Positions 37,077-48,084 of a stretch of 64,000 bases of DNA are shown in pieces (the first letter of the stretch is position 1; every line of letters begins with the position of its first letter). The stretch is taken from positions 1,550,001-1,614,000 of the forward strand of contig JAGMVK010000004.1 of NCBI GenBank assembly GCA_020747065.1, in the 5' to 3' direction. The DNA is from Cadophora sp. MPI-SDFR-AT-0126. Taxonomy: Eukaryota; Ascomycota; Leotiomycetes; Helotiales; Ploettnerulaceae. The position numbers and the translations under genes are program-made. The notes below the pieces were generated by a model, which was not told where the DNA came from, ran no database searches, and was given only the letters and a program-made list of their open reading frames with translations.

Positions 37077-38118
37077 TCATGACACTCTATCGTTCTCAGC
37101 ACTGAGTTCGGCCATCATGCCCCCCTTGTCCCTTTTCTTTTCATCCTCCTGTAATCTCCTCGCAATAAATTTAGACATCTCTTTGACCTTAACAGCCGCG
37201 ACCTCAACACAGTTCAGCAACGTCAATGCATGGACAGGCACACCTCCCAACTTGGCAATCTGGCAAACCTCCCCATGCCTATTCATACCAATAGTCACAG
37301 ACCCCTCCCTCAACTGCTCCTCCATCAACCCCGCATCAAGCAAAACCTTCTCCTTTTCTCCTTCCCCATCCTTCCCCAATACTCCCTCCCCATAGAAGCT
37401 AAACGTCACACACAATGGGAAATGCAACAAGCTCAGCTTCACCGGCTCCCTCTCCGCACTACTATACACAACCACCTCCTCGCCCCTAGTCTCCGTATCC
37501 GGCTTCCTGAAATGCTGTAGCGCCGCAATGACAGCTATACACGCCGCATCCACCAGATTCCCATCATGGCTTATGACATGCACGTCTGCGCGTATAGACC
37601 AGACTTTTGAGCTGGCAATCAGGCAGAGCGATTCTGTGTCCAGCGCGCCTGAGCGCCGGATCGTCTTTTCGAGGAGGCGGGAGAGGAGCGTTTCGGTTTC
37701 TGTTGGGCGCGAGGAGGATTCGATGGAGGGGGAGAGCATGGGCGACAGTTCGGTGGTGATGGTGAAAAGGCCGTCGATGGGGCGGTCGGGGAAGGGTGTT
37801 ACGACTTGGGCGGAGATGTGAGTGTGTATTCTGTGGAGGGGTTAGTGGGGACGATGGATTTGGTGGAGTGTTCTCTCCCATGACAGGAAACATAGTATTC
37901 AAAGGATTCAGTATCTTGCCAGAAGAGCTAAACAGGGAATAAAGTAAAACATGCCTCGTCTTCCCTAACCTGACATCCACCACACCCAACTCATCCCCAA
38001 AATCCAGCTCGAGAGCTCTATATTGGTCGAAACTCCTTCCATCTAGCCGTATGTTTTCTTGTAGAGCCTTGGCAAAGAACTGCCGCTCATTGAGCGAGGG
38101 TTCGACTTCTCGCGGCAT
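37077..38118 (-). CDS. rrp45: Exosome complex component Rrp45
   Basis: Two exons: complement(37077..37830, 37955..38118); 918 nt, 305 aa. The start is MPREVEPSLNERQFF; a frame-open extension to 38202 is treated as leader. Signature sequences are ENIRLDGRSFDQYRALELDFG, GVVDVRLGKTR, AQVVTPFPDRPIDGLF, TELSPM and the RNase PH-like second half with DGNLVDAACIAVIAAL. Rrp45 is one of six RNase PH-type subunits of the exosome ring and is catalytically inactive. The single intron (37831-37954) has a GC donor (ACGAG|GCATGT); joining there gives GKTRIHTHISAQVV exactly in frame. It is divergent from CWC15 with 232 bp between starts. Confidence 0.94.
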
Positions 38119-42141: not shown

Positions 42142-43444
42142 ACAGTAGTTGTACGAATGATGAACGGGAGGGAAAGGACTTTTGGATTGTATTGTTTAGT
42201 ATGATTAATCAATGAACGTTTTGAAGCAAAAACTTATTTCTTCGGTCTTGAAAAGCATGTTCTTTTGCAAGCGAGGTTCAGATATGTCTCCAGGTAAGGC
42301 GACAAGGAAATCAAATCGACAGCTCAGAAAGTTCTCTGCCCCGCACCACGGGCTCGTCGTGCCGAGCTCATCCTGGTCAATCGAACGTCATTCTGCAGCT
42401 TGGTCCTTGGATATGGTTCATTTAAATGTAAACAAATCCGAGGCAGACAACCCGAAGAGCATTGTAAATTTCTGATATATCAGAATAGTCTGTGGCAACA
42501 GACAGCCCAGTCCTTGATTCCATCTACAGAATCTCCATTGAACACATTCGATCTGCTGCAGAGTCGCGTTATCTCCGCGGTGCATTTGAGTACGTCTCCG
42601 ACACAGTCAGTAGAGTCGGTAGAATTTCATTCCAGTCTGTCTTGACTCGAAGTTTGCGCGGGAAATTCCTGGAATAAGTTGTGTTTTTAGTAACATGAAT
42701 GGAATGTGTTCCAGGATGTCAAGATCTGTTTTGAGGCGACACTCCTAGCATGGTTCATCATCACGAGCTTGGATTCTGCATTTCGTGGTTGGGCGGTAGC
42801 TGCTTCCCAAATCATCATCTGGAGTTCTGGAGGAAGGTTGGGTAGGCTACGCGAGAGATACGGAAGCTCTGGGAGAGCCCCGGTCTACCGGATGTGTAGA
42901 GCTGGTGGTGGATGGAGCATTTTCCATGCTGAATGGGGGTCTGCTGAAAATGGTTGCTGCAATAACCTGACTTCAGCCGACCAACGATTAGTACCCCAAA
43001 AACCGGGGCTCGAAATGAGACTCCCTGGCTACCGATGCTCTTGGCTTTATTAGTCTTGCAAATAAATTTATTCTCTTTCGCTGTGGGGCCAAGTGCCGTC
43101 GTGGGTTTGACCAATTTTGCAAGGGTCTCCTTTATGGATTAGGCGAGGAGTATGTTTACTTCGTAGCGAGGAATTGTTTTCTAAGCACAATATCGGGCAA
43201 GAAGTATCTCTGAGTTCGTAACAGCTGTGATATATCTTCTCTCTTGAAATGAAAACTAGATAAATCAATTTCAAGATGTACCCTTTATTGGTACAGCTTG
43301 GTGCAGAGAAGCCCCATGCAACTCGCCTAAGCCTGCACCTCACTCCACACCGCTAAGGTACACCTGCGGGGAAAATTTGTAACGTCTTCATCTAACCAAA
43401 TAACCAAATCGATTTCAACCAGCTGAGCAACACGTTCTCACAAA
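42142..43444. other. Intergenic, left part of a gene-poor stretch
   Basis: About 1.3 kb with short uninformative ORFs only. It leads into the split tRNA gene. No clear TATA-like box was seen in the 60 bp before 43445. Confidence 0.45.
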
Positions 43445-43459
43445 GGCACTTTGGCGGAG

Positions 43460-43509
43460 GTTAGTCCCTCATCCAACATCCCACGTGAGCAACCACTAAT
43501 CATAAACAG
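43460..43509 (+). other. Spliceosomal-type intron 1 in the tRNA (D loop)
   Basis: 50 nt, GTTAGT donor, branch-like CTAAT at 43496-43500, AACAG acceptor. It lies between GAG and TGG of the D loop, inside the A box. Confidence 0.8.
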
Positions 43510-43522
43510 TGGTTAACGCGAT

Positions 43523-43576
43523 GTGAGATTTCTCTCTCCTCAGCTTATCCTGAGCTGTATCTAATAAACCATACAG
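43523..43576 (+). other. Spliceosomal-type intron 2 in the tRNA (5' anticodon stem)
   Basis: 54 nt, GTGAGA donor, branch-like CTAAT at 43561-43565, TACAG acceptor. It splits the 5' strand of the anticodon stem after two bases. It contains an internal CTCAG/CTGAG hairpin. Confidence 0.8.
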
Positions 43577-43585
43577 GGCCTGCTA

Positions 43586-43601
43586 TTACACAAGTAAAGA
43601 C
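43586..43601 (+). other. Canonical-position tRNA intron (37/38)
   Basis: 16 nt starting one base after the GCT anticodon, the standard place for introns removed by the tRNA splicing endonuclease. It has no GT...AG ends. Confidence 0.75.
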
Positions 43602-43606
43602 AGCCA

Positions 43607-43658
43607 GTAAGTTTATCTGATGGCATTACTCATCTCTTCACATCTAACATATCATCAG
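43607..43658 (+). other. Spliceosomal-type intron 3 in the tRNA (3' anticodon stem)
   Basis: 52 nt, perfect GTAAGT donor, perfect CTAAC branch sequence at 43644-43648, ATCAG acceptor. It separates the first four bases of the 3' anticodon strand (GCCA) from the last (T). Confidence 0.85.
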
Positions 43659-43708
43659 TTTCCTTCGGGAGCGAGTGTTCGAATCACTCAGGTGTCGCAT
43701 ATCAACAA

Positions 43709-43715
43709 TTTTTTT
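43709..43715 (+). terminator. RNA polymerase III terminator (T7)
   Basis: A run of seven T on the coding strand begins 12 nt after the tRNA discriminator base, with a second run of six T at 43721-43726. This is the expected Pol III stop and argues for Pol III transcription of the split tRNA gene. Confidence 0.75.
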
Positions 43716-47064: not shown

Positions 47065-48084
47065 ATGAGCAAGATGGGGGATTTCGATGCCGTCCGACAG
47101 GACATTGCAAAGCTCTTGCACCAACCTGAGTACGACGATGGCAGTGCTGGGCCAGTCTTGGTCCGCCTTGCTTGGTATTTTCTCCCACATTCCACTGGCA
47201 TGCATCGTCTAACAACTCGTAGGCACTCAGCAGGAACTTATGATGCAGAAACAGATACCGGTGGTTCGAATGGAGCTGGAATGCGATATGAAGCTGAAGG
47301 CGGCGACCCCGCTAACGCAGGCCTCCAACACGCGCGTGTCTTCCTCGAACCGGTCAAGGCCAAGCATCCTTGGATCACCTATGCCGACTTGTGGACACTT
47401 GCTGGTGTGGTGGCTATAAAGGAGATGGGAGGACCTTCGATACCGTGGCAAGGGGGACGAACCGACTATGTCGATGACAGCAAGCTGCCACCTCGGGGCC
47501 GATTACCGGATGCTACACAAGGATACGATCATTTGAGACGTATCTTCTACCGGATGGGTTTCAATGATCAGGAAATTGTGGCCTTGTCAGGAGCGCATAA
47601 CCTTGGACGTTGTCATTCCGATCGGTCTGGGTTCGATGGAGCTTGGGTCAATAATCCAACGAGATTCTCGAATCAGTACTTCCTTCTCTTGCTCTCGTTG
47701 CAATGGAAGAAAAAGACACTCGAGAACGGCATCGAGCAATTTGTGCACTACGACGACGACTCGGAGACCGAACTCATGATGCTCCCAACCGATATGGCCC
47801 TGAGACAGGATAAGATCTTCCTCAAGTATGTGGAGCAGTATGCTACCAACAAGGATCTTTTCTTTGCGGATTTCGCGAAGGTGTTTGCCAAGTTGCTGGA
47901 GTTGGGTATTCAGAGAGATGCAGAGGGGAGGATCACCAATTCTAATAACGAGAAGGGTGGATACCTTTCTGCGCCGAAGAAGAAGGCCACTCCCGGGACA
48001 GACGAGACTACGGATGACAAGGTTGGACCGAGTGAGGGGGAGCCATTGATGGAGGAGAACAAGGCTTTCCGAGCAAGGTTGTGA
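47065..48084 (+). CDS. Cytochrome c peroxidase-type heme peroxidase (putative CCP2)
   Basis: Two exons: 47065..47174 and 47223..48084; 972 nt, 323 aa. The start [18 protein letters not shown] lacks a mitochondrial presequence, as in the fungal CCP2 group. The distal heme pocket RLAWHSAGTYD (Arg, Trp, His) is formed only after removal of a 48-nt intron; this intron has no stop and is a multiple of three, so the unspliced frame would separate Trp from His. The proximal His is in [11 protein letters not shown], followed by [13 protein letters not shown] and the [10 protein letters not shown] segment. The enzyme reduces hydrogen peroxide using cytochrome c or another donor. The last ~45 residues form an acidic tail not present in yeast CCP1. 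Confidence 0.92.

Follow-up and report, generated by a model that had tools for sequence, protein, structure and literature searches.

Introns with spliceosomal signals in a nuclear serine transfer RNA gene and in further transfer RNA genes of a Cadophora genome

Can a nuclear transfer RNA (tRNA) gene be split by introns of the messenger RNA (mRNA) type? In the textbook account, the introns of nuclear tRNA genes lie at position 37/38, and their removal is the task of a dedicated tRNA splicing endonuclease. The question is raised by a locus of the ascomycete Cadophora sp. MPI-SDFR-AT-0126, located in a stretch of 64 kilobases (hereafter, the window; contig JAGMVK010000004.1 of assembly GCA_020747065.1, positions 1,550,001 to 1,614,000 of the forward strand). 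The unspliced window yields no tRNA call with ARAGORN and no Rfam match at the gathering score, and four short blocks spread over positions 43445-43697 join into a tRNA-Ser(GCU). With a probability of roughly 90%, we consider this locus to be a tRNA-Ser(GCU) gene that carries three introns with mRNA-type signals and one ordinary tRNA intron, and the transcript of which likely passes through the spliceosome first and is then completed by the usual tRNA enzymes.

The joined exons (Table 1) measure 97 nucleotides (nt), which ARAGORN calls as tRNA-Ser(gct) with 81 nt of mature tRNA and a 16-nt intron at 37/38; once the exons are joined, the class II cloverleaf with anticodon GCU is complete. In total, the gene thus has four introns, three of the mRNA type and one ordinary. 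A first-pass annotation, made from the sequence alone, had described four blocks forming a complete 81-nt tRNA-Ser(GCU). The complete tRNA and its mature length stand, but the joined length does not, and the fold of the joined exons includes the extra intron, which had been missed inside the third block. The blocks, their coordinates, the insert lengths of 50, 54 and 52 nt, the donors, branch sequences and acceptors were all reproduced. The spliceosomal-type reading given there is supported as well, in that the splice marks are present and the inserts resemble introns in 28 other tRNA genes and two U6 genes of the same genome, from which we infer removal by the spliceosome. Left unspliced, the RNA of the window has a more stable fold than shuffled versions (z -3.05), on which no conclusion is based here.

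An uninterrupted tRNA-Ser(GCU) gene lies elsewhere in the genome (contig C3, 602156-602252, minus strand). In an alignment that allows free insertions and has no knowledge of splice motifs (motif-blind), the mature C3 copy and the window gene are identical at 82/82 aligned bases (all 81 tRNA positions plus one flanking base on the 3' side), and the only insertions in the window gene are those of 50, 54 and 52 nt, each of which can be placed as GT-AG, and the 16 nt at position 37. The weight of the boundary placement rests on this alignment, because an ARAGORN fold alone is not base-precise: when introns were moved by 2-12 nt, acceptable folds were still obtained at 4-19 of 63 stretches, compared to 22 of 63 without a shift, and the window gene itself folds acceptably under shifts of -12, +2, +3, +4 and +9. 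The intact copy also counts in favour of a rival reading, in which the window gene would be a duplicate in decay, with introns lodged in a dead copy from which no tRNA is made; the interruption of box A in the window gene points the same way. Decay of the exons relative to the intact copy, however, is not seen. The exon bases have remained constant while the adjacent 37/38 introns of the two copies have diverged to 8/16 shared bases, which speaks against a decaying copy.

The window gene is not alone. The genome (54 Mb, 38 contigs) was searched with patterns for box B and a T-run and with a tRNA model, and the fetched stretches were read by a splice-aware search that looks for a tRNA fold after removing as many as three GT-AG introns in combination, together with an intron quality score, the latter added because the first version of the fold search gave wrong combinations, the window included. 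At least 29 split genes, carrying 39 mRNA-type introns, were found among 81 recognised tRNA genes, in a census that is partial and biased because mainly matches that looked tRNA-like by eye were fetched (60 stretches). The split genes comprise Ser(GCU) (3), Ser(AGA) (1), Thr(AGU) (3), Thr(UGU) (1), Gly(UCC) (3), Gly(GCC) (3), Tyr (2), Pro (2), Asn (3), Ile (3), Met (1), Ala (1), Arg (2) and one Leu-like gene (L124, SeC according to ARAGORN). Intron sites extend from acceptor base 5 through the 3' acceptor strand, including the D, anticodon, variable and T regions, and a hand count gives 28 isoacceptor-and-site combinations. In all four Gly(UCC) loci read (L095, L096, L120 and L122), the acceptor stem (GCTTCTG versus CAGTTGC) has the same two U-U mismatches.

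The pattern searches returned 405, 62, 48 and 78 matches, compared to 244, 28, 50 and 62 in the backward control, with about 100 of the 405 listed. The tRNA model scored 62 of 1988 candidates, and 50 of its 52 matches were read. Among these 50 loci, eight are split and 42 unsplit, after rejection of L049, in which the intron lay at the 3' end, and addition of L046 by hand; the model matched L045, L046, L048 and L097 only in part. The 63 box-B stretches were read as 24 split, 10 unsplit and 29 without a tRNA. The 24 became 21 upon removal of L093 and L142 (equally good under many intron shifts), L099 (poor anticodon arm) and L150 (a repeat of L045), and addition of L153. Among 32 stretches subjected to motif-blind alignment, eight (L100, L101, L116, L118, L125, L132, L143 and L145) gave no resolved structure; one of these, L101 (C3:1368800-1370150), contains three stretches resembling tRNA 3' halves, with T-runs, within about 600 bases. 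Two other loci, L025 and L147, are tRNA-like and were called by ARAGORN as Cys with anticodon ACA, possibly owing to a misplaced intron boundary.

The motif-blind comparison was applied to 22 split genes, each aligned to an unsplit gene of the same isoacceptor. By hand tally, 27 of the 30 insertions of at least 40 nt outside the anticodon loop can be placed as GT-AG, each with 1-4 equivalent placements, whereas none of the 15 anticodon-loop insertions can. The exons are in several cases perfectly conserved between split and unsplit genes (72/72 in the three Gly(UCC), 71/71 in the three Gly(GCC), and 74/74 in two Ile genes and the Met gene), which, for the glycine genes, again argues against decay. 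Identity is lower for Thr (64-68/72), Tyr (70 and 71 of 76), L123 (77/82), L119 (64/82), L050 (77/81), L051 (63/72), L052 (67/72) and L046 (64/73). With at most four equivalent placements in same-isoacceptor pairs, any target duplications would be no longer than 3 nt. Copying of the introner type was not seen in a comparison of introns at different sites, which match over no more than 12-16 nt, mostly around the branch and acceptor.

The 39 introns, a set mostly picked with a motif score, have a median length of 51 nt (range 47-96). Donor position 5 is G in 38/39, a CTRAY branch sequence lies 8-16 nt before the intron end in 38/39 (17% in shuffled interiors), and the introns terminate in CAG (25), TAG (8) or AAG (6). 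T-runs of five or more occur in 1/39 introns versus 2.7 expected, a depletion that is not significant. These features bear on two further explanations. One is that the inserts are introns of the bulge-helix-bulge type, processed by the tRNA endonuclease but located outside the usual site, like those of the red alga Cyanidioschyzon merolae. The inserts are, however, bounded by GT and AG and have a branch site, whereas none of 34 anticodon-loop introns of at least 10 nt called by ARAGORN starts with GT and ends with AG. A test for a 4-base-pair helix on either side was positive for 5/39 introns, compared to 8.0 expected when introns were dealt to other genes, although the positive control with 37/38 introns (14/34 versus 11.8 on either side, and versus 7.9 on the exon-1 side) indicates that the test is only moderately strong. 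We regard this explanation as very improbable. Self-splicing group I or group II introns, which are known in bacterial and organellar tRNA genes, are more improbable still, given that inserts of 47-96 nt are too short and that the window contains no match to any Rfam family at the gathering score.

Whether the split genes are used is best judged from tRNA-Asn. A query with the joined Asn sequence returned three candidates, all three scored, and these loci (L140, L141 and L153) all contain an intron at 26/27 and have identical tRNA sequences outside the anticodon-loop intron, the 26/27 introns themselves being 67-75% identical to one another, compared to 64% for shuffles. The search of the genome DNA, which short pieces can escape, found no uninterrupted tRNA-Asn locus, and it is for this reason that the argument for a need of splicing rests on tRNA-Asn. 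In eukaryotes, both Asn codons are read by tRNA-Asn(GUU). Thus, with every locus found being split, protein synthesis would depend on intron removal, barring an intact gene that was overlooked here or is missing from the assembly. Pro(AGG), considered as a further gene for which splicing might be indispensable, gave no clear case, since the 5' half of a nearby copy is uninterrupted. In the Pro(AGG)-like locus L154 (C8:689740-690090), the 5' half is likewise unbroken, the T loop possibly holds an intron, the acceptor end does not pair and the flank is AT-rich.

Use of the split genes is also suggested by another split Ser(GCU) gene, L123, which has introns at the first two sites of the window gene. 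Its anticodon stem differs by two double changes that preserve pairing (28-42 from T-A to C-G, and 29-41 from G-C to A-T), yielding ACAGC/GCTGT versus ATGGC/GCCAT in the window gene, where the bases of this stem come from exons 2, 3 and 4 and are paired only after splicing. These compensatory changes, the conserved exons, the unsuccessful search for an unsplit tRNA-Asn locus and the upstream element described below leave the decaying duplicate with a small chance of being correct, even considering the degenerate appearance of L154. The split tRNAs are likely functional and probably made by RNA polymerase III (Pol III), with their introns predicted from the sequence signals to be spliceosomal.

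An upstream element close to GTAACCAAATAAGC, a pattern written after the sequences had been seen, is present at 21/25 split and 46/52 unsplit tRNA genes (4.1 and 9.0 in shuffles), with four split genes excluded for having too little upstream DNA; overall, it sits 18-70 nt 5' of 67 of the 77 tRNA genes examined. In fission yeast, tRNA genes have upstream TATA boxes that recruit TFIIIB directly. This element is also relevant to the idea that no tRNA is produced from the sequence, which would instead be the exon set of a longer RNA polymerase II transcript, either a long non-coding RNA or an mRNA, as could be thought from the normal occurrence of mRNA-type introns in transcripts of that polymerase. 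The TATA-like element close upstream of the window gene, as in most unsplit tRNA genes examined, the seven-T run shortly after its 3' end (Table 1), and the lack of an overlapping open reading frame of at least 180 amino acids (among unspliced frames) leave only a slender chance for such a transcript.

For the split tRNA-Ser(GCU) gene with its two kinds of introns, the following course of events can be proposed. The upstream TATA-like element would position Pol III, perhaps through direct recruitment of TFIIIB, and the polymerase would transcribe all exons and introns through to the T-run. The spliceosome would then excise the three GT-AG introns as lariats, and the customary action of RNase P, RNase Z and the tRNA splicing endonuclease would follow. 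This order is suggested by the fact that these enzymes require a folded tRNA, and the cloverleaf can form only after splicing because the anticodon stem is assembled from three exons. More broadly, we consider it probable, if less firmly than for the window gene itself, that spliceosomal introns constitute a standing further class of nuclear tRNA introns in this lineage, affecting about one-third of the recognised tRNA genes, with two splicing systems acting on one transcript and all translation dependent on the spliceosome through likely Pol III precursors of tRNA-Asn.

Several observations weigh against these conclusions. At the level of the promoter, box A or box B is broken by an intron in 15/29 split genes, so that the internal promoter would be weakened, and although the upstream element could be the answer to the broken boxes, 4/25 split genes lack it. 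The intact C3 paralogue means that the window gene alone need not be essential, and it could be dispensable. The Pro-like copy L154 looks degenerate. The Asn search missed the first exon of L141, which is 26 nt long, although the 5' half of an unsplit gene would be longer, at 38 nt. With respect to intron placement, three of the 30 insertions in the motif-blind test (L123 intron 2, L050 and L046) could not be placed as GT-AG, although a GT-AG intron is present in each and the gap was set a few bases off through base changes or short flanks. In addition, L045 opened no gap, and the intron of L046 was placed by hand, the search itself having preferred none. Finally, L124, L137, L138, L140, L141 and L153 have no reference of the same isoacceptor, and comparison with other isotypes yielded one clean GT-AG insertion (L124); the first five are accordingly based on the motif-guided search and L153 on reading.

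Other small RNA genes of this genome were also considered. Two genes for U6 small nuclear RNA, L055 (C38:2221085) and L058 (C11:486589), contain three introns of the same kind, one and two, respectively, at different sites; after joining, the two sequences match in 93 of 107 columns. Unspliced, L058 scores 38.6 bits, below the U6 cut-off of 44, whereas in the U6-like L056 and L057, both above the cut-off, no introns were detected by eye. U6 is itself a component of the machine that would remove its introns. By contrast, at least 26 dispersed matches to 5S ribosomal RNA (47 of 2664 candidates scored) span 119-121 nt and thus contain no inserts.

Comparison with known systems helps to define what is unusual here. 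In PMC5832005, U6 and the U3 small nucleolar RNA are, as of 2017, the only small structured RNAs given as often interrupted by spliceosomal introns in fungi. These introns, including those in U6 of this genome, resemble the tRNA introns in that they are short GT-AG introns with a CTRAY branch in a small structured RNA; the differences are that the hosts here are tRNAs of many isotypes, with up to three introns per gene, and that several of the genes also have an ordinary intron. Spliceosomal introns are further mentioned for nuclear ribosomal DNA of ascomycetes in PMC11782384, and these are likewise of the mRNA type in a non-coding RNA gene, but the host is ribosomal RNA rather than tRNA. For C. 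merolae, PMC9602550 describes several introns per nuclear tRNA gene, in the D and T arms, with bulge-helix-bulge motifs; the multiplicity is shared, whereas the introns described here have spliceosomal signals. Ordinary 37/38 introns, one of which is present in the window gene, also reside in nuclear tRNA genes, but the introns described here differ from them in position, GT-AG ends, branch site and lack of a bulge-helix-bulge excess. Searches of the open-licence literature of PubMed Central, a scope that leaves out preprints and most subscription papers, showed no account of nuclear tRNA genes with spliceosomal introns; PMC4125763, PMC4494063, PMC3978253 and PMC13130702, which had seemed possible sources of one, appear to treat other subjects.

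As hosts of spliceosomal introns, the tRNA genes of this genome look no less open than protein genes. If this is correct, the supply of translation adaptors would be coupled to the spliceosome, and splicing could join exons as short as 5-15 nt in RNAs that are likely Pol III products. It would also account for tRNA genes that ordinary tRNA finders overlook or cut short in a genome of this kind, and would provide a countable record of intron gain, in which exon boundaries are fixed by structure and intact paralogues.

Table 1. Parts of the split tRNA-Ser(GCU) gene and two comparator introns, in window coordinates; bracketed numbers after branch sequences give the distance to the intron end in nt
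Feature	Position	Strand	Basis or remark
TATA-like upstream element, CTAACCAAATAACC	43392..43405	+	40-53 nt 5' of the tRNA
Exon 1: 5' strand of the acceptor stem and first part of the D arm; box A broken after nt 15	43445..43459	+	
mRNA-type intron 1, 50 nt, GTTAGT...CTAAT(9)...CAG	43460..43509	+	insertion relative to intact C3 copy, GT-AG placement
Exon 2: remaining D arm and first two anticodon-stem bases	43510..43522	+	
mRNA-type intron 2, 54 nt, GTGAGA...CTAAT(11)...CAG	43523..43576	+	insertion relative to intact C3 copy
Exon 3: anticodon arm (anticodon GCT), within which the ordinary tRNA intron lies	43577..43606	+	ARAGORN
Ordinary tRNA intron, 16 nt, position 37/38, without GT-AG	43586..43601	+	ARAGORN
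mRNA-type intron 3, 52 nt, GTAAGT...CTAAC(10)...CAG, 3' of mature position 42	43607..43658	+	insertion relative to intact C3 copy
Exon 4: final anticodon-stem base, variable arm, T arm with unbroken box B, acceptor 3' strand, discriminator G	43659..43697	+	
Seven-T run, likely Pol III terminator, 11 nt 3' of the tRNA	43709..43715	+	pattern match; chance expectation for the window 0.29
Comparator: peroxidase gene, likely 48-nt mRNA intron, GTATTT...CTAAC(9)...TAG	47175..47222	+	Pfam PF00141 on open reading frame
Comparator: GC-AG mRNA intron of the RRP45 gene, 124 nt, CTAAC(10)...CAG	37831..37954	-	tblastn

The window also provides two mRNA introns for comparison, one in the RRP45 gene and one in what we take, from a peroxidase motif and not from an alignment, to be a peroxidase-gene intron. 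Both have CTAAC 9-10 nt from the intron end, a geometry like that of the tRNA introns. The genome lies in or near Ploettnerulaceae (Helotiales), judging from the 96% identity of RRP45 with a Cadophora gregata cluster and the 95% identity of endonuclease G with Oculimacula yallundae.
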